From a bacterium (GTDB lineage: Bacteria > Orphanbacterota > Orphanbacteria > Orphanbacterales > Orphanbacteraceae), in contig JALGYY010000035.1 of the NCBI GenBank assembly GCA_025782575.1, forward strand, positions 84,670-148,669: a stretch of 64,000 nt of DNA, given 5' to 3'. Each line of letters starts with the position of its first letter. Within the stretch, counting starts at the first letter, position 1. Below the pieces are notes generated by a model that searched no databases, was not told where the DNA came from, and worked only from the letters and a program-made list of their open reading frames with translations. Positions 11,453-20,011 of the stretch are shown piece by piece. The position numbers and the translations under genes are program-made.

Positions 11453-11513
11453 GCTCTTCGACTATCCCTCAAGCCCGTGAAAGTGCTAGTTTTCAATCAA
11501 AAGGAGGATGATT

Positions 11514-12866
11514 TTGAAAATTTTGATCCGGAATTCCCACACGATCGCCCTGCTCGATCTCTCGAAAAGGGAAATCAGGGGGGGATGGATATCGGTCACG
11601 GATGGTGTCATCGACGGAGTGGGCGAGCCCGGGCAGGAACCGGAAGGGCCTTTCGAGGAGATCCTCGACGCTTCAGGCATGGCCGTACTCCCCGGCTTCG
11701 TTAATACTCATCACCATCTTTTCCAGACGTTGACCCGTGCGCTTCCGGGTGCGACGGACGCCGAACTGTTCGACTGGCTGACCACGTTGTACCCGATCTG
11801 GGAGAAAATCAATCGGGATGGTGTGAAGTCCGCCGCCCTCACAGGTATGGCGGAGCTCCTGCTTTCCGGCTGCACCACGACTTCCGATCATCACTATCTC
11901 TTTTCGCGCAACTGCGCCGACCCGATCGACGCGACGATCGAGGCGGCGAAAGAGATCGGCATCCGTTTTCATGCCACCAGAGGAAGCATGTGTCTGTCGG
12001 AAAAAGATGGCGGCCTGCCCCCCGATACTGTCGTTCAGGATGAAAAGACCATCCTTGCTGACTCCCGGCGGACAGTGGAAGAGCATCATGATCCCTCACC
12101 GGGTGCGATGATTCGTGTCGCCCTCGCCCCTTGCTCTCCGTTTTCGGTCACCCGGTCCCTCATGAAAGAGACGGCTGATCTCGCAAGGAGTCTCGACGTT
12201 CATCTCCACACCCATCTCGCGGAAACGAAAGACGAAGAAGATTACTGTATCAAGCACTTCGGAAAACGACCGCTCGACTATCTTGACGAAGTCGGGTGGC
12301 TAGGTGATTCCACATGGCTCGCCCACGGCATCCATTTCGAGAAGGCGGAGATCAGCCGGCTGGGATCCGTCTGTTGCGGCATCGCCCATTGTCCCCAATC
12401 CAATATGCGTCTGGCTTCGGGGATCGCCCCCACTCTTGATCTGATTCGGGCAGGGGTGAGACTGGGGCTCGGCGTGGACGGCTCCGCCTCGAACGATAAT
12501 TCGTCCCTCTCGGCAGAAGCGAGGCAAGCGCTCCTTCTCGGCCGCCTCAAGTACGGCGCCGCCAGTCTGACTGTGGACGAGGTGCTTCGATGGGCAACAC
12601 GCGGAGGGGCCTCCCTACTCGGGAGAGATGATATCGGCCGGATCGAGCGGGGCGCCCGAGCTGATCTCGCTCTCTTCCCGCTCGATGACATCGCCTTCTC
12701 CGGTGCGGGAGACGCGATTGCGGCAATCCTGCTCTGCGGGCCGCTCCGTGTTCACACCCTTCTCGTGGAAGGCCGGATTGTAGTCAGGGAAGGACGGCTG
12801 GAGACGATCGATCTCGGCCGGCTGCTGGAAGCTCATCGAGCCGAGGCCAGGCGGATTCGAGAGTAG
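11514..12866 (+). CDS. 8-oxoguanine deaminase-like amidohydrolase
   Basis: About 450 residues. TTG 11514 is preferred because AAGGAGG lies six bases upstream; the ATG at 11508 abuts the ribosome site directly. Metal and active-site motifs of the amidohydrolase superfamily are present: NTHHHLFQTLTRALPG (about 64-78), TSDHHYLF, HLHTHLAETKDEE, LAHGIHF and GLGVDGSASNDNSSL. The pattern is that of the 8-oxoguanine deaminase/hydroxydechloroatrazine hydrolase group rather than of classical guanine deaminase. The expected reaction is deamination of 8-oxoguanine (or a related purine) to urate. It heads a cluster with ssnA, ygeY, ygeW and yqeB, supporting a role in purine degradation. Confidence 0.85.
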   Translation: MKILIRNSHTIALLDLSKREIRGGWISVTDGVIDGVGEPGQEPEGPFEEILDASGMAVLPGFVNTHHHLFQTLTRALPGATDAELFDWLTTLYPIWEKINRDGVKSAALTGMAELLLSGCTTTSDHHYLFSRNCADPIDATIEAAKEIGIRFHATRGSMCLSEKDGGLPPDTVVQDEKTILADSRRTVEEHHDPSPGAMIRVALAPCSPFSVTRSLMKETADLARSLDVHLHTHLAETKDEEDYCIKHFGKRPLDYLDEVGWLGDSTWLAHGIHFEKAEISRLGSVCCGIAHCPQSNMRLASGIAPTLDLIRAGVRLGLGVDGSASNDNSSLSAEARQALLLGRLKYGAASLTVDEVLRWATRGGASLLGRDDIGRIERGARADLALFPLDDIAFSGAGDAIAAILLCGPLRVHTLLVEGRIVVREGRLETIDLGRLLEAHRAEARRIRE

Positions 12867-12899
12867 CAAGTAGAGAAGAACCGGCGAGCGACTACCGTC

Positions 12900-12908
12900 T
12901 GGTACAAT
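12900..12908 (+). promoter_or_regulatory. Possible extended -10 promoter before ssnA
   Basis: TGGTACAAT forms an extended -10 element (TGn followed by TACAAT) 50 bases before the preferred ssnA start. No good -35 hexamer is found at 16-18 bases upstream, so the site is tentative; it could give an internal promoter for ssnA onward. Confidence 0.3.
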
Positions 12909-12959
12909 GTTCTCCCTGTATGTCTCAGGCCCGGGCGAATGGAGAATAATCGAACAGCC

Positions 12960-14288
12960 ATGTCATCACTTGTCATTTCAGGCGGCATTGTCATCACTCT
13001 CGGTGAAAAGCCCCGGGTCATTCCGAACGGCGCTGTTCGTATTCGAGATGGCGTTATAGAAGAAGTCGGGCTCGCGACGGAAGTCGGAACAGCGGGAGCG
13101 GAGTTGATCGAAGGATCGGGGCAGGTCATTCTCCCCGGTCTGATAAACGCCCATACTCATCTCTACGGAGCCCTTGTACGAGGACTCCCATGGTCGGGCC
13201 CTCCCCCTACATCGTTCCGTGACATTCTGGAGCGTCTCTGGTGGCGCTGGGACAAGCTGCTCGATGCCGATGCCATTCGTCTGAGCGCCCAGGTCGGTAT
13301 GCTCGAAGCTCTTCGCTCGGGAGTCACTACTCTCATCGATCATCATGCAAGCCCGAACGAGATCGACGGCTCTCTCGATCTCATCGCAGGCGCCGCCACG
13401 AAAGTGGGTATGCGGATCGCCACTGCATACGAGGTTTCGGATCGGGACGGCTCCGAGGTGAGAGATCGGGGCGTGCAGGAAAACATCCGCTTCGCCCGGC
13501 GGGTAAGCAAGGAAAAACCGGGGCTTCTCGGAGCGGCGATCGGTGCACATGCTTCGTTCACACTGTCCGATGAATCGCTCTCGCTGCTGGCGGCCGCGAG
13601 GGAAGAGACCGGAGCTCCGATTCATATCCATATGGACGAGGGGACGGAGGACGGCGAGGCATCACGCGCTGCTTCACACAAGTCCACGGCAAGAAGGCTC
13701 GCCGATCGCGGCATTCTTCGAGAAGAGACGATCCTCGCCCACGCAGTGAATATCGATTCGAGTGACATCCCCCTTCTTGCCGAACGGAGAGCATTCGTAA
13801 GTCATCAGCCTCTTTCCAACGGAAACAACGCTGTCGGGCGCGCGCCGATTCCCGCCATGCTGAGCGCCGGTGTCCGGCTTTGTCTGGGGAGCGACGGCAT
13901 GAGCGGCAGCCTCGGTGTTGAAGCCCTGGCAGCCGGTGCGATCCACCGTATGGCCGAGAAGGACGTGACCATTCCGTTCGACCTCCCCTGTCGACTGGCG
14001 TGGGAAGGAAACGCGCAGCTCGCGGCCACATTGTTCGACCCGCCTCCCGGGGTGCTTCGTCCGGGAGCGGCCGGTGATATCGTACTGATCGACTATGATC
14101 CGCCTACAGAGATCAATGAGTCCAACCTCGCCGGGCACTGGTTGCTCGGCATACTGCACGCGCCCGTGAATCGTGTCATCGTCGCCGGTCAGGTCGTACT
14201 TGACGGTGGACGGTTGACTCGAATGGACACGGCAAGGATACTGGCAGATTCGAGAAAATGTGCGGAAAGCCTCTGGCGCCGCTTCTGA
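12960..14288 (+). CDS. ssnA: Putative aminohydrolase SsnA
   Basis: 442 residues from ATG 12960, which aligns with the known SsnA N-terminus (the frame also has an ATG at 12939; neither has a strong RBS). SsnA hallmarks run throughout: GLINAHTHLYGALVRG, LWWRWDKLLD, SGVTTLIDHHASP, ENIRFARR, GAAIGAHASFT, PIHIHMDEG, LGSDGMSGS and a final SLWRR. The family belongs to the amidohydrolase superfamily and is encoded in selenium- and molybdenum-hydroxylase purine-degradation loci of enteric and anaerobic bacteria, where it is thought to hydrolyse a purine-derived intermediate. Its neighbours YgeY and YgeW here are the same partners. Confidence 0.92.
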   Translation: MSSLVISGGIVITLGEKPRVIPNGAVRIRDGVIEEVGLATEVGTAGAELIEGSGQVILPGLINAHTHLYGALVRGLPWSGPPPTSFRDILERLWWRWDKLLDADAIRLSAQVGMLEALRSGVTTLIDHHASPNEIDGSLDLIAGAATKVGMRIATAYEVSDRDGSEVRDRGVQENIRFARRVSKEKPGLLGAAIGAHASFTLSDESLSLLAAAREETGAPIHIHMDEGTEDGEASRAASHKSTARRLADRGILREETILAHAVNIDSSDIPLLAERRAFVSHQPLSNGNNAVGRAPIPAMLSAGVRLCLGSDGMSGSLGVEALAAGAIHRMAEKDVTIPFDLPCRLAWEGNAQLAATLFDPPPGVLRPGAAGDIVLIDYDPPTEINESNLAGHWLLGILHAPVNRVIVAGQVVLDGGRLTRMDTARILADSRKCAESLWRRF

Positions 14289-14325
14289 CGGAAACGAATT
14301 GAATCGAACATTTCAGGAGGAGAAC

Positions 14326-15531
14326 ATGAAGAACGCGGTCCTCGATCGCGCTGCGAAATACGAAAAAAAGGTCGTCCGCTTTCTGCGGGACATCGTGGCG
14401 ATTCCCTCGATGAGCGGGGAGGAGAAGGAAGTCGTAGAGCGTGTGGGCAACGAGATGACCGATCTGGGTTACGACGAGGTCCGTACGGACAAGCTCGGCA
14501 ATGTAATCGGCAGAATCGGAAAGGGGAAGAAGACTATTCTCTTCGACTCCCATCTCGATACGGTCGACATCGGCGATCCGGACAACTGGAGTCATGATCC
14601 TTTCAAAGGAAAACTCGATTCCCGATTCGTCCATGGCCGGGGAACATCCGATAACAAGGGTGGACTCGCTTCGATGGTATATGGAGGACGCGTACTTCGC
14701 GACCTTGCCCTGGACGGCGGCTACACCATTCTCGTCGTCGGCTCGGTCATGGAAGAGGATTGTGACGGCCTCTGCTACAAATCGATGATCGAAGAAGACA
14801 AGACCAGGCCCGACTTCGTCTGCCTCGGAGAGAGCACTAATCTGCGGATCTACCGGGGCCATCGTGGACGGATGGAGATCAAAGTGACCGTCGGGGGAAA
14901 GTCGTGTCACGCGAGTGCACCCCACCGGGGCGTAAATGCCGTCTACAAAATCACGCCGATCATCCAGGGAATCGAAAAACTGAACCGGCGCCTGAAAAAC
15001 GACAAGGATCTCGGCAAGGGAACGATTGCAGTCACTAAAGTCGACTGCCGGACAGCCTCTTTGAACGCGGTACCCGACCAGGCAGTGATCTATCTTGACC
15101 GGCGGCTCACAAAGGGAGAGTCGAAGAAGAGTGCGGTGGCCGAAGTTCGCAAGATCGTCCAGAGAACCGGCAAGGTGGAAGTGCTTACCTATGAGCGGAA
15201 GAGCTGGAAGGGGCATACATTGCCGATGGAGAAGTACTTCCCCACATGGGTACTCCCCGAAGAGCACGATCTTGTTCAAGCAGGAGCCGATGCCTTTCGC
15301 GAGCTCTTCAGCCGTAGACCCAAAATCGACTTCTGGACATTCTCTACGAACGGTGTTTACACGATGGGAATCGCGGGGATTCCGACTATCGGCTTCGGGC
15401 CGTCCGAAGAAAAATTCGCACACTCTCCCCTGGACCGGTGTCCCATTGATCACCTCGTAAAAGCATCGGCGTTCTATGCGGCACTTCCGACAGCACTCCG
15501 AGGCCGTCTGACTTCAAAAGGAAAGAAATAA
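14326..15531 (+). CDS. ygeY: YgeY family M20 metallopeptidase-like hydrolase
   Basis: 401 residues from ATG 14326, with AGGAGGAG nearby. It is an M20-family di-zinc hydrolase: DSHLDTVD (first metal His/Asp), GRGTSDNKGG (bridging Asp), VMEEDCDGL (catalytic and metal Glu pair) and a dimerisation domain beginning MEIKVTVGGKSCHASAP. The match is to the YgeY subgroup linked to selenium metabolism, which is proposed to open or hydrolyse an amide intermediate during purine breakdown. It lies 37 bp after ssnA and 2 bp before ygeW. Confidence 0.93.
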   Translation: MKNAVLDRAAKYEKKVVRFLRDIVAIPSMSGEEKEVVERVGNEMTDLGYDEVRTDKLGNVIGRIGKGKKTILFDSHLDTVDIGDPDNWSHDPFKGKLDSRFVHGRGTSDNKGGLASMVYGGRVLRDLALDGGYTILVVGSVMEEDCDGLCYKSMIEEDKTRPDFVCLGESTNLRIYRGHRGRMEIKVTVGGKSCHASAPHRGVNAVYKITPIIQGIEKLNRRLKNDKDLGKGTIAVTKVDCRTASLNAVPDQAVIYLDRRLTKGESKKSAVAEVRKIVQRTGKVEVLTYERKSWKGHTLPMEKYFPTWVLPEEHDLVQAGADAFRELFSRRPKIDFWTFSTNGVYTMGIAGIPTIGFGPSEEKFAHSPLDRCPIDHLVKASAFYAALPTALRGRLTSKGKK

Positions 15532-15533
15532 GA

Positions 15534-16529
15534 ATGACATTTCAAGTGCCGGACCATCTCAAGGGCCGTGACTATATTGAGACGAGCGATTGGACAGTAG
15601 AAGAGATCAACACGGCACTCGAAGTTTCGAGCGATCTGAAGCGCCGGTTCAAGAATGGCGAACCGACCAGATGCCTCGTGGACAGAACAATCTTCCTGTT
15701 TTTCTTTGATAAGTCGACCCGTACGAGAAACTCGTTCGAAGCGGGGATCACGCAGCTCGGTGGCCACGCTCATTTTATTGACGCCGAAACGAGTCAGGTA
15801 TCCCACGGCGAGAGCCCACGCGATACGGGGATCATCCTTTCCCGTTACGGCCATGGCATCGCCATTCGCCATGATCTCGTCCCGGGCGAGGGGAACAGCT
15901 ACATGCGTGAAGTGGCGGAACATGCCGACAAACCGGTGATCAACATGCAGTGCGACGTGGATCATCCCTGTCAGACACTGGCCGATCTCATGACGATCCG
16001 TGAGCGTTTCGGGGACGATCTCCAGGGAAAGAAGATCGCCGTCTCCTGGGCCTATGCGCCGTCCTACGCCAAACCGATGTCGGTTCCCCAGGGGTTGATC
16101 ATGCTGATGACCCGTTTCGGCATGGACGTCACCCTCGCCCACCCGCCGGAATTCGAGCTCATGCCTCATACTATGCAGAGAGCGGAAAAGAACGCTTCGG
16201 AATCGGGCGGCCGGTTCAGGGTAGTGAAGACCATGGAAGAGAGCTTCGATGGAGCGCACATCGTGTATCCCAAAAGCTGGGGTTGCCACGATCTCTTTCA
16301 TGAGCCGGAAAAATCGCTCGAGGTCGGGAGGAAGTACACCGACTGGATCTGTGATGAAGAGAAGATGAAGCTCACCGATTCCCAATCGCTCTACATGCAC
16401 TGTCTGCCGGCGGATCGAGGGAGCGAGGTTACCGACGAAGTGATCGACGGTCCCCATTCGATCGTGTTTGACGAGGCGGAAAACCGGCTTCATACGGCCA
16501 AGGCGCTCATGGCGCTCACGATGGAATAA
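15534..16529 (+). CDS. ygeW: Knotted carbamoyltransferase YgeW
   Basis: 331 residues. Carbamoyl-phosphate-binding residues are seen in FFDKSTRTRNSFEAG (STRTR), the HPCQTLADL motif and HCLPADRG. The overall sequence is that of YgeW rather than ornithine carbamoyltransferase; in YgeW-type clusters the enzyme is thought to run in the phosphorolytic direction, cleaving a carbamoylated purine-ring fragment to give carbamoyl phosphate for ATP synthesis. It is shorter than E. coli YgeW (about 396 residues), missing part of the N-terminus. It sits between ygeY and a PLP enzyme, as in purine-catabolic loci. Confidence 0.9.
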   Translation: MTFQVPDHLKGRDYIETSDWTVEEINTALEVSSDLKRRFKNGEPTRCLVDRTIFLFFFDKSTRTRNSFEAGITQLGGHAHFIDAETSQVSHGESPRDTGIILSRYGHGIAIRHDLVPGEGNSYMREVAEHADKPVINMQCDVDHPCQTLADLMTIRERFGDDLQGKKIAVSWAYAPSYAKPMSVPQGLIMLMTRFGMDVTLAHPPEFELMPHTMQRAEKNASESGGRFRVVKTMEESFDGAHIVYPKSWGCHDLFHEPEKSLEVGRKYTDWICDEEKMKLTDSQSLYMHCLPADRGSEVTDEVIDGPHSIVFDEAENRLHTAKALMALTME

Positions 16530-16533
16530 GGGA

Positions 16534-17784
16534 TTGGCAGCGGGGCTCACCGATCGGGTTCTAGGCTACCGCTGCGTCTCCTGCAACCGGGAGCACGGGC
16601 GAAACGCGGCCGGGATGACCTGTGATCATTGCGGCGGCAATCTGGATGTCGTTTATGACTATGGCCGGATCGCCCGCGAATGGGATCGGAACCGGCTGGA
16701 GCGATCGACAGATCGGACGATCTGGGCATACAGGCCTCTGCTTCCCCTGCATGAAGACACACCTGTGCCGGCACTCCCGGTAGGGGGCACACCTCTAGTT
16801 CGATCCGAGGCGCTCGAGAAAGCGATCGGCCTTTCGAAAATCTACCTGAAAGACGATACGCGGAACCCGACCGCGTCATTCAAAGACCGGGCGAGTCTCG
16901 TCGCTTCTCTACGGGCGATCGAGTCCGGAGTTCGCACGATCGCGACCGCTTCGACCGGGAATGCCGCCTCTTCGCTCGCGGGAATGGCGGCCGCCCTGGG
17001 TATGAACGCCATTATCTTCGTGCCGGAGAGCACACCGGAGCCCAAGCTCACCCAGATCCAGATGTATGGTGCGGAACTTTATCGTGTACAAGGGAGTTAC
17101 GACGATGCCTTCGAGCTTTGCTCGAAGTGCTGTAAACGATTCGGGTGGTACAGTCGCTCCACAGGTGTGAACCCGTTCACTGTAGAGGGAAAAAAGACCG
17201 CCGCTTTTGAAATCGCCAGGGAGATGAACTGGAAAGCACCTGACTGGGTGCTCGTGCCGACAGGGGACGGCAATATCCTCGGCGGTGTGGCCAAAGGCTT
17301 TCGTGAACTTCAACTGCTTGGATGGATCGATCGAATTCCCAGGATGGCTGCGGTTCAGGCGGAAGGCTCAGCCGCCATCGTGAATGCCATTCGCTCGGGT
17401 GGTGAGATAGAATCGGTAGCCGCAAAAACGGTGGCGGACTCGATATCGGTCTGCCTGCCTCGGGATGGTGTTCGTGCGGTCCGGGCGGTCAGGGAGACAG
17501 GCGGCGCCGGTGTTTCCGTAACAGACCGGGAAATTCTGGAGGGGGCGAGAGAACTCGCCCGAATGACGGGGATCTTCGCGGAACCATCCGGTGCGGCTCC
17601 CCTCGCCGGGCTCCGGGCACTCCGCCGGGACGGCACAATCAAGGCTGGTGAAACCGTTGTTCTCATGATCACTGGAAACGGGCTGAAAGATACAGACTCC
17701 GCAGCCCGACAGTTCACTCTCCCTGAACCGATTGCTCCGGAATTGGAAGCGGTCGAGCGGGAGATCGCCCGGCGGTCATCATGA
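16534..17784 (+). CDS. thrC: Threonine synthase-like PLP enzyme
   Basis: About 416 residues. The start is hard to fix: the frame is open from 16468 inside ygeW, and TTG 16534, just after the ygeW stop, is the best candidate. An N-terminal zinc ribbon (CVSC and CDHC) is followed by the fold-type II PLP domain with the Schiff-base lysine near residue 117 (NPTASFKDRAS) and STGNAASSLAG for phosphate binding. Family members turn O-phosphohomoserine into threonine. In related purine loci this position is taken by ygeX (2,3-diaminopropionate ammonia-lyase, same PLP fold), so this homologue may have been recruited for that deamination. It overlaps yqeB by 4 bp. Confidence 0.8.
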   Translation: MAAGLTDRVLGYRCVSCNREHGRNAAGMTCDHCGGNLDVVYDYGRIAREWDRNRLERSTDRTIWAYRPLLPLHEDTPVPALPVGGTPLVRSEALEKAIGLSKIYLKDDTRNPTASFKDRASLVASLRAIESGVRTIATASTGNAASSLAGMAAALGMNAIIFVPESTPEPKLTQIQMYGAELYRVQGSYDDAFELCSKCCKRFGWYSRSTGVNPFTVEGKKTAAFEIAREMNWKAPDWVLVPTGDGNILGGVAKGFRELQLLGWIDRIPRMAAVQAEGSAAIVNAIRSGGEIESVAAKTVADSISVCLPRDGVRAVRAVRETGGAGVSVTDREILEGARELARMTGIFAEPSGAAPLAGLRALRRDGTIKAGETVVLMITGNGLKDTDSAARQFTLPEPIAPELEAVEREIARRSS

Positions 17785-18572
17785 CCAGTCCGCGCAGAGT
17801 TCTTATTCTCGGCGCAGGAGAGATGGCGTCAGGAATCGCGGTTCGGCTCCATCGCGCACGCTTCGCGGTATCAATGACAGAGATCAGCGAGCCGCTCGCC
17901 GTCCGCAGGGGGGTGGCTTTCGCCGATGCCGCGTGCGACGGAACATGCCGGGTAGAATCGATCGAAACGCGGCGGGCCGACCATGTCGAAGATGAAGCGC
18001 GGATTCGGGAAGCCGGTGCGATTCCGCTTCTGGTCACCGGCACAATCCCCGAAGCCTGGATCTCCCATTCGGACGTCCTGGTGGACGGCCGGATGATGAA
18101 AGGGGGGCACGGTCTCTCCCGGAATCTGGCGCCCCTCGTCATCGGCATCGGCCCCGGGTTTCACGCAGGCGATGACTGCCACTATGCGATCGAGACCGAG
18201 AGAGGGCACACTCTTGGCCGGGTGATCGAGAGCGGGCCGACCAGACCCAATTCGGGAATACCGGGCATGATCGCCGGGGTGTCCGAAGGGCGGATATTGA
18301 GAGCGACCGCGGACGGCCGTATTGAGGAGAGTCTTGCAATCGGCGCAATCGTGACTCGGGGAGAAGAGGTCGCCCGTACAGGGGGAAAGCCTGTCTTCGC
18401 CGCGATTGACGGCATTCTTCGGGGGGTGATCCGCCCCGGTACCCGCGTGTCAAAGGGACTCAAGATCGGCGATGTCGATCCTCGCATGGATGTGCCGATC
18501 GATCGTGTCTCGGACAAAGCGCTCGCGATCGCCGGAGGTGTGCTGGAAGCAATCATGCGGGGCCCCGCGTGA
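17781..18572 (+). CDS. yqeB: YqeB/EF2563-type selenium-dependent molybdenum hydroxylase system protein
   Basis: 263 residues. The N-terminus is a dinucleotide-binding fold (RVLILGAGEMASGIAVRLHRA), and the rest matches the EF2563 family: MTEISEPLAVRRGVAFADA, VDGRMMKGG, LVIGIGPGFHAGDDCHYAIETERGH is the most diagnostic stretch, ending with KIGDVDPR. Proteins of this family co-occur with selenium-dependent molybdenum hydroxylases and are thought to mature or supply their labile-selenium cofactor. The hydroxylase itself is not in this window. It overlaps the threonine-synthase-like gene upstream and the metal transporter downstream by 4 bp each, so the three are tightly coupled. Confidence 0.93.
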   Translation: MTSPRRVLILGAGEMASGIAVRLHRARFAVSMTEISEPLAVRRGVAFADAACDGTCRVESIETRRADHVEDEARIREAGAIPLLVTGTIPEAWISHSDVLVDGRMMKGGHGLSRNLAPLVIGIGPGFHAGDDCHYAIETERGHTLGRVIESGPTRPNSGIPGMIAGVSEGRILRATADGRIEESLAIGAIVTRGEEVARTGGKPVFAAIDGILRGVIRPGTRVSKGLKIGDVDPRMDVPIDRVSDKALAIAGGVLEAIMRGPA

Positions 18573-20011
18573 GGGGGGCGGGCCTCACGATTTTCCTTTT
18601 GCTCTTGACGGCAATTATGCCCAGGCCCGCCGCTGGCCATCCGATGGGTAATTTCTCCGTCAACCACTACGCTTCCATCCGAATCTGGGATGACACTCTC
18701 TCCATCCGCTATCTGCTCGACTTCGCCGAAATTCCTTCGGTCCCCCTGATCAAACAGATCGATCGAGATGGTGACGAACTGATTACGGCTGAAGAGAGAG
18801 AGGTTTTCGTCGATTCCCTGCTCCCTTACATAGAAAACGGCATTGAACTGAAGGTCGACGGCGTCCCGCTCCCACTGTTGAACCGATTCCGGAACATCCA
18901 CCTGATCGAAGGGGAGGGGGGCCTGTTCACCGTCGTCGTCGGTCTGGATTGGGTCGCCGGTTACGACCCCGTTCGAGCCGAGAACACGGGCCCCCGGCTG
19001 GCAGAGTACACTGATCGGAACTACTTGGATCGGCCGGGCTGGAAGGAGATCAGAATCGATGGGGAGGAAAATGGTACCCGGCTGCTGCGGGCGTCTATCG
19101 ATCCAGGAGATCCGACAGAAGGACTGACCACCTATCCGGAGGAATACCGCGAAAATCCGCCTGACGAAGATCACGCTCTCTTTTACTTCGGGGATGGGGA
19201 AGCGCCCCCATTCCCGGGGACCGGAGAGAAAGGGACGTTCGCAAAGCGAGAAACGAATCGCTACGCCGATCTGCTGACCAGGCGGGGTTCGCCGTTCGCA
19301 CTCGCCGGCGCTCTCGGACTGGCTCTTCTTTTCGGCGCGCTTCATGCAGTCGAACCGGGGCATGGAAAGACACTGGTTGCCGCCTATCTCGTTGGATCGA
19401 AGGGAACGATCGGACAGGCTCTCCTGCTCGGGCTGGTCGTTACGATCACTCATACTCTTTCCGTTTTCCTGCTTGGCCTGGTCACTCTCTTTGCGTCCGA
19501 TCGAATCATGCCGGATCGTCTCTACCCCTATCTCGCCCTTGTCTCGGGAACGCTCGTCCTTGTGATCGGCCTGGTCCTTTTCCGTAGCGCCTTTAGGGCT
19601 CTGAAGAGGGGGACGACCGACCATGGGCATCACCACCATCATGGACGGGGCGGGGATGACCATCACCATCACCACCATTCCGTAACGGACGAGAGCGCCT
19701 CTCTGGGTCAGCTCCTCATCCTGGGTATCACCGGGGGACTCGTTCCCTGCCCCTCCGCCCTTGTCGTTCTTCTGGGAGCGGTCGCCCTGGGGAGAATCGC
19801 GTTCGGCCTGGCGCTCATACTCGCCTTCAGCCTCGGTCTCGCCCTCGTTCTCATGGGGATTGCGGTGCTTTTCGTCGTCGCCCGCCCGCTGGTGGAGCGC
19901 CTGACTATAGGGGAGGGGGCCTTCCGCTGGCTCCGTCTCGCCTCTTCGGGGGCAATCACGATTATCGGGGCGATCATCCTCTATCACGCATTCTTTGCAG
20001 TTTCTTATTAA
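18569..20011 (+). CDS. NicO-family nickel/cobalt transporter with extracytoplasmic domain and His-rich loop
   Basis: 480 residues from GTG 18569. A signal peptide precedes an extracytoplasmic domain (about 25-225) beginning HPMGNFSVNHYASI and including a calcium-binding-like loop (IDRDGDELITAEE). The membrane part (about 230-480) has NicO hallmarks such as GALHAVEPGHGKTLVAAYLVG, HTLSVFLLG and GGLVPCPSALVVLL. A cytoplasmic loop near 350-373 is very rich in His (HHHHH and HHHHHH runs), likely a metal buffer or sensor. NicO/RcnA proteins move Ni2+ or Co2+ and may act as exporters or importers. Its overlap with yqeB links metal traffic to the molybdenum-hydroxylase system. Confidence 0.88.
   Translation: MRGAGLTIFLLLLTAIMPRPAAGHPMGNFSVNHYASIRIWDDTLSIRYLLDFAEIPSVPLIKQIDRDGDELITAEEREVFVDSLLPYIENGIELKVDGVPLPLLNRFRNIHLIEGEGGLFTVVVGLDWVAGYDPVRAENTGPRLAEYTDRNYLDRPGWKEIRIDGEENGTRLLRASIDPGDPTEGLTTYPEEYRENPPDEDHALFYFGDGEAPPFPGTGEKGTFAKRETNRYADLLTRRGSPFALAGALGLALLFGALHAVEPGHGKTLVAAYLVGSKGTIGQALLLGLVVTITHTLSVFLLGLVTLFASDRIMPDRLYPYLALVSGTLVLVIGLVLFRSAFRALKRGTTDHGHHHHHGRGGDDHHHHHHSVTDESASLGQLLILGITGGLVPCPSALVVLLGAVALGRIAFGLALILAFSLGLALVLMGIAVLFVVARPLVERLTIGEGAFRWLRLASSGAITIIGAIILYHAFFAVSY

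Follow-up and report, generated by a model that had tools for sequence, protein, structure and literature searches.

A threonine synthase-like gene in the YgeX position of a probable variant reductive urate pathway cluster from Orphanbacterota

We analysed a stretch of 64,000 nucleotides (hereafter the window) from a bacterium of the GTDB phylum Orphanbacterota (assembly GCA_025782575.1, contig JALGYY010000035.1, positions 84,670 to 148,669), which carries a tight run of purine-degradation genes. In the place where YgeX, the diaminopropionate ammonia-lyase, would be expected, this run has a zinc-ribbon pyridoxal phosphate (PLP) enzyme that resembles threonine synthase (ThrC). That the locus belongs to the reductive urate (yanthine) pathway is well supported, and we favour, on balance, the view that it represents a variant of that pathway in which YgeX is replaced by the ThrC-like enzyme, which by itself or together with a second PLP protein probably acts as diaminopropionate lyase. 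The ThrC-like substitution is seen repeatedly across more than ten bacterial phyla, most of which had no earlier link to the pathway. This pathway was elucidated as recently as 2025, in gut bacteria. Whether it arose long ago in the environment or has newly adapted to the gut is a question raised in a commentary (PMC12990295), and the wide phylum spread makes it testable with trees and assays. The locus also yields new candidates for enzymes that break down diaminopropionate and urate, and many genes annotated as threonine synthase probably do not encode one.

A ThrC paralogue in place of YgeX

The ThrC-like gene occupies 16534..17784 on the + strand; its likeliest start is a TTG at 16534, four bases past the stop of the preceding gene (ygeW), and its stop overlaps the start of yqeB as ATGA. 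An earlier note on this DNA, made from the letters alone, had recognized a ThrC homologue where YgeX was expected, and the protein indeed passed the cut-offs of two threonine synthase models (PRK08197, 321 vs 303; TIGR00260 thrC, 225 vs 167; here and below, bit scores are quoted against the curated cut-off). Its match to PRK08206 was weak (67 vs 276) and the cut-off of the YgeX model (TIGR03528) was not reached. The window's genome (4.88 Mb in 49 contigs, 95% complete) has ten PALP-family genes, none of which was a YgeX by comparison with an E. coli-type reference, from which a very distant diaminopropionate lyase could escape; a YgeX hidden elsewhere in the genome was rejected on this ground. 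In the AlphaFold2 model of the window protein (pLDDT 93), the best structural matches were threonine synthases (Z 42-46), and it shares fold type II, the PLP lysine and the Ser-Thr-Gly-Asn loop with those of T. thermophilus (1UIM, 1V7C) and A. aeolicus (2ZSJ). Diaminopropionate lyases matched with Z 33-34 (4D9M, 5YGR): YgeX has the same fold type and pathway position, but the ThrC-like enzyme is of another subfamily of fold type II.

The earlier note had allowed that the gene might simply be the biosynthetic threonine synthase, with a normal ygeX elsewhere and no other thrC in the genome. We found the reverse, since ygeX is absent and a canonical ThrC that keeps all substrate residues lies on another contig (C7), adjoined by a putative homoserine kinase gene (TIGR02535, 491 vs 446), so that the window gene is a paralogue. 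In a tree, the window protein fell in a clade of 39 sequences (support 100/99), apart from canonical ThrC and from the PRK08197 group, to which a protein encoded on contig C17 belongs. We then compared 11 canonical ThrC with 40 sequences of the window clade, using T. thermophilus numbering. Thr88, Arg160 and Asn188 were kept in 11/11 canonical enzymes and in 0/40 of the clade, where all members carried Ala at position 88, Thr, Leu or Cys at 160 and Asp at 188; Arg242 was lost in 39/40 and A240S was also found throughout. From the substrate-analogue structure of the T. thermophilus enzyme, we take Arg160 and Asn188 to contact the substrate phosphate and Thr88 to govern reaction specificity; published residue roles for ThrC or YgeX were not found in the open literature. 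Unlike the T. thermophilus and A. aeolicus enzymes, the window clade also has an N-terminal zinc ribbon, whose four cysteines were invariant across 24 relatives, and a urate-pathway context. The protein on C17 (L024:9186-10499; PRK08197, 577 bits) is a second zinc-ribbon "threonine synthase" with Thr88 changed, N188G and Arg160 kept; we rejected it as a twin of the window gene because it sits in a separate clade.

We found no paper in the open literature linking threonine synthase homologues to the reductive urate pathway. In the published network, "YgeX" was coloured by PF00291 (PMC12507026), and because this family covers both PLP proteins described here, that survey could not see the difference. 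A further structural match was CapA2 (9K3C), which we take to be the ThrC-like enzyme that makes cysteate in the capnine pathway. The ThrC-like fold was matched over 394 residues (Z 39.9), but identity was 18% and the pathway is another one; if CapA2 has this role, it would be a known case in which a ThrC-like enzyme uses a beta-substituted alanine as substrate.

Distribution of the cluster and of a second PLP protein

When an alignment of YgeW was scanned against 84,980 species genomes, 48 contigs from more than ten phyla, the window's own relatives included, showed 58-83% identity to the window YgeW, the next matches being under 50%. Among 80 loci read for neighbourhood content, 25 had a ThrC-like gene at most 10 kb away from ygeW. 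The second PLP protein, about 490-527 residues long and with a cysteine-synthase fold of the beta-cyanoalanine/cysteine synthase type, is a conserved neighbour in many phyla and in related genomes often directly adjoins the ThrC-like gene. It fits no curated family, and an assignment as the thiolase OrtB was rejected since the OrtB model was not matched. In the window's genome, this partner stands alone at C2:692660-694138. It probably works with the ThrC-like enzyme or takes part of its job, for example one isomer.

We then examined 54 whole genomes, picked for carrying the cluster and supplemented with the window's phylum and two YgeX controls; many of the genomes in this analysis are metagenome-assembled. 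A ThrC-like orthologue was present in 44 and the partner in 46; the two occurred together in 40, while four genomes had just the ThrC-like gene, six just the partner and four neither. YgeX, again sought with an E. coli-type reference that could miss a very distant lyase, was absent from 52 and present in two. The variant pathway that the earlier note had suspected is supported. A set of 247 Acidobacteriota gave a control with less bias: 13 genomes carried both the ThrC-like gene and YgeW vs 2.0 expected (other cells 9, 9 and 216; Fisher p 1.2e-10, kinship between genomes ignored), and in six of the nine with a ThrC-like gene and no YgeW, the gene was adjoined by SsnA, XDH, YgeY or YgfK. All-against-all clustering of the neighbourhoods disclosed no cross-phylum family besides the pathway families and the two PLP enzymes.

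Contiguous operons were found, for example, in L067 (YgfK, SsnA, XdhB, XDH, partner, YgeY, YgeW, kinase, ThrC-like) and L152 (ThrC-like, 8-oxoguanine deaminase, XdhB, XdhC, XDH, YgeY, YgfK, YgeW, kinase, SsnA, partner). The pathway with altered terminal PLP enzymes and a shorter YgfK was seen in Eisenbacteria, KSB1, Acidobacteria, Woeseiaceae, other Gammaproteobacteria, Planctomycetes, Elusimicrobia, Sumerlaeota and others; SsnA has been reported in Pseudomonadota, Bacillota, Chloroflexota, Actinomycetota, Spirochaetota and Elusimicrobiota (PMC12507026).

The gene run in the window

The seven genes described by the earlier note, six in the order of purine-degradation loci followed by a NicO transporter, are all present where it had placed them, as a single run on the + strand with spacings of 2 to about 90 bases and 4-base overlaps toward the end. 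Genes in high-GC loci were assigned by homology, since antisense open reading frames mislead longest-frame calling. The run opens with an 8-oxoguanine deaminase (11508..12866; NCBIfam NF006055, 654 vs 532), which is predicted to feed urate into the pathway and whose homologues adjoin the ThrC-like gene in the Acidobacteria loci L146, L147, L151 and L152. It is followed by the ring-opening amidohydrolase SsnA (12960..14288, alternative start 12939; NF005540, 430 vs 444; TIGR03314, 401 vs 455.5), homologues of which were found in many related clusters, and by the M20-family ureido hydrolase YgeY (14332..15531; TIGR03526, 532 vs 321.5), with an orthologue in 6/7 genomes of the window's phylum. 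The next gene (15534..16529) encodes a short, 331-residue knotted carbamoyltransferase whose top family is YgeW (271 vs 453); it is 44% identical to E. coli YgeW and retains the knot motifs WAYxPSYxKPxSVPQG and YPKSW. The ThrC-like gene comes next, and then YqeB, a maturation protein of selenium-dependent molybdenum hydroxylases (17781..18572; TIGR03309, 264 vs 220). This gene order is kept in further genomes of the window's phylum, and dozens of unrelated contigs carry these families side by side, which argues that it is not due to chance.

The last gene encodes a NicO-type nickel/cobalt transporter (18569..20011; PF03824, 58 vs 27.7). The overlap with yqeB to which the earlier note drew attention is real and measures 4 bases, but it looks incidental, as NicO follows YqeB in only one (G004) of the relatives examined. 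We therefore rejected NicO as a part of the pathway and regard it as a plain neighbour of doubtful membership.

Remaining pathway and selenium genes elsewhere in the genome

The earlier note had reported the hydroxylase, ygfK and hyuA to be absent from the window. None was found there, but this does not extend to the genome, where candidates for the first two lie on contig C21 and for the third on C42. In C21 (82.2-90.4 kb), a short YgfK is followed by a permease and a three-subunit molybdenum hydroxylase. The large subunit of the latter (XdhA) carries a Glu in the column of Glu606 of E. coli XdhD, a residue linked to yanthine formation (PMC12507026). The insertion around this column is common to the C21 XdhA and to Acidobacterial hydroxylases sited with YgeY, YgfK, YgeW and SsnA, and is lacking in E. 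coli XdhA and in fused selenium-type XDHs; the motif around the Glu differs (YEVK in the C21 XdhA vs GEGK). C21 can be tied to the urate pathway because the same hydroxylase type (50% identity) and a short YgfK share an operon in Acidobacteria with YgeY, YgeW, SsnA and carbamate kinase. The HyuA/dihydropyrimidinase candidate on C42 (571 vs 393) is unlinked to the window.

The C21 YgfK (L021:12170-14173; 667 residues) matches the N-terminal 400 residues of YgfK plus the iron-sulphur motifs, and lacks the Pyr_redox NAD(P)H/FAD domain that is present in E. coli YgfK. This is the commoner form in related genomes: the 54 genomes had 35 YgfK-like places, with open frames of about 550-800 residues in 29 and of about 900-1150 in six, figures that are approximate because a gene may be shorter than its open frame and because frames may be cut by contig ends. 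The short form suggests a different electron donor, and in being without the FAD/NAD(P)H module it parallels UacX of C. difficile, for which ferredoxin has been proposed (PMC12507026).

The earlier note's assignment to the selenium/molybdenum type of purine-degradation locus agrees with the gene families present, with YqeB and with two further findings in the genome. One is SelD, on C46 (L035; G000:C46:271946-272869; 385 vs 125), read through an in-frame TGA that is probably selenocysteine, so that the genome likely has a selenocysteine system; YqeB and SelD of the selenium-dependent hydroxylase system are thus both present. The other is that the organism has two molybdenum hydroxylases, on C21 and C11. 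As in published loci of selenium-dependent molybdenum hydroxylases (PMC2276186), YqeB (TIGR03309) and SelD are present and YgeY, YgeW and SsnA are in the locus, and the relative G001 has TIGR03311 in its cluster. Unlike them, the C21 enzyme is a three-subunit, XdhD-like one that scores under the cut-offs of TIGR03311 and TIGR03313 and of every other selenium model. The hydroxylase on C11 (L023:10465-14487) is nearest to 4-hydroxybenzoyl-CoA reductase (835 vs 995).

A variant reductive urate pathway and its alternatives

The published route runs from urate through yanthine, dihydroyanthine, ureidomethyl-hydantoin, diureidopropionate, amino-ureidopropionate and diaminopropionate to pyruvate (PMC12507026), the order of ureido removal being disputed (PMC12990295). 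For its upstream half, SsnA is in the window and YgfK-like and XdhD-like proteins are on C21; for the downstream half, YgeY and a divergent YgeW are in the window and the HyuA candidate is on C42. Every step ahead of the last therefore has a candidate gene, and the ThrC-like enzyme fills the position of the missing YgeX. From sequence we infer the following reactions, the substrate of the PLP enzyme among them. The window locus would encode the lower half of the pathway. 8-Oxoguanine would be deaminated to urate, which the XdhD-like hydroxylase would reduce to yanthine; the short YgfK would then reduce the ring, its electrons probably coming from ferredoxin or some other carrier, and SsnA would open it. 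The HyuA homologue may open the hydantoin to 2,3-diureidopropionate, from which YgeW would take off one ureido group as carbamoyl phosphate and YgeY would hydrolyse the other to yield 2,3-diaminopropionate. Acting in the YgeX role, the ThrC-like enzyme would convert this to pyruvate and ammonia by beta-elimination, and its rebuilt phosphate pocket (Arg160 lost, Asn188 to Asp) would suit a beta-ammonium substrate rather than a phosphate. Because its gene is in the operon, diaminopropionate lyase is the simplest assignment, although the exact reaction is a prediction. The energy gain by way of carbamoyl phosphate that the earlier note suggested is plausible, given that 23 related loci include a carbamate kinase; none was seen near the loci read in the window's genome, in which no genome-wide search was made. 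The E. coli/Clostridium yanthine pathway (PMC12507026) is similar in having SsnA, YgeY, YgeW, the N-terminal half of YgfK, an XdhD-like hydroxylase, a HyuA homologue and, as in many clusters related to the window's, carbamate kinase. It differs in that YgeX is here replaced by the ThrC-like enzyme plus the cysteine-synthase-like partner, in the YgfK domain lost, and in the scattering of the genes over several loci.

Several observations weigh against this interpretation. SsnA scores just under its curated cut-offs, and YgeW falls below its own and is assigned by best match only. The pathway is spread over at least four contigs, so that the linkage of C21, C42 and C2 to the window contig (C13) rests on relatives, and the phosphate-binding role of the changed ThrC residues is taken over from the T. 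thermophilus structure. Three of the Acidobacteriota with a ThrC-like gene have no pathway gene on the contig read. Finally, the ThrC-like gene is missing from four genomes with the short YgeW, and in six genomes the partner occurs without it, so that the partner could be the lyase. The ThrC-like enzyme would then perform another step of the same pathway, such as epimerisation, beta-replacement or one involving albizziin. We hold this to be doubtful: the partner does occur in clusters without a ThrC-like gene (for example L102, L105, L108 and L110) and its fold suits beta-substituted alanines, but in the window and its closest relatives it is the ThrC-like gene, not the partner, that is in the operon, and four genomes have the ThrC-like gene without a partner. 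It is also conceivable, if unlikely, that outside the gut the pathway commonly ends with both enzymes jointly replacing YgeX, one per diaminopropionate isomer. YgeX handles both isomers. Were the two-enzyme ending true, the pathway would be an old environmental one and not a gut invention, the gut YgeX version being derived.

That the true substrate of the cluster is a urate-related nitrogen heterocycle or ureido compound, and not urate itself, seems improbable to us. The divergence of YgeW and SsnA, the lack of HyuA in many clusters and the two kinds of hydroxylase would fit such a substrate, but the combination of SsnA, YgfK, the hydroxylase, YgeW, YgeY and carbamate kinase is found repeatedly in related loci, SsnA is a published marker of urate clusters (PMC12507026), and 8-oxoguanine deaminase yields urate. 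We find it very improbable that the ThrC-like gene of the window encodes an ordinary threonine synthase and lies in a purine operon by chance. It passes two threonine synthase cut-offs and has threonine synthase as its nearest fold, but this reading was rejected in view of the canonical ThrC on C7, and the loss of Thr88, Arg160 and Asn188 throughout the clade and the clade's association with urate genes in many phyla also speak against it.

Other observations

Genes for a geranylgeranyl diphosphate (GGPP) synthase, a pentapeptide-repeat protein and a glycerophosphodiester phosphodiesterase (window:8187-11365) flank the cluster also in the relatives G004 and G005, which is a conserved synteny of the family. 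Elsewhere in the window's genome, two long open reading frames (L048:1-1188 and L049:15200-16324) share a similar N-terminal region, MTTKKM...LYLKEGYSSLFxxCTxRWxYS, and form a repeated gene family that may be mobile.

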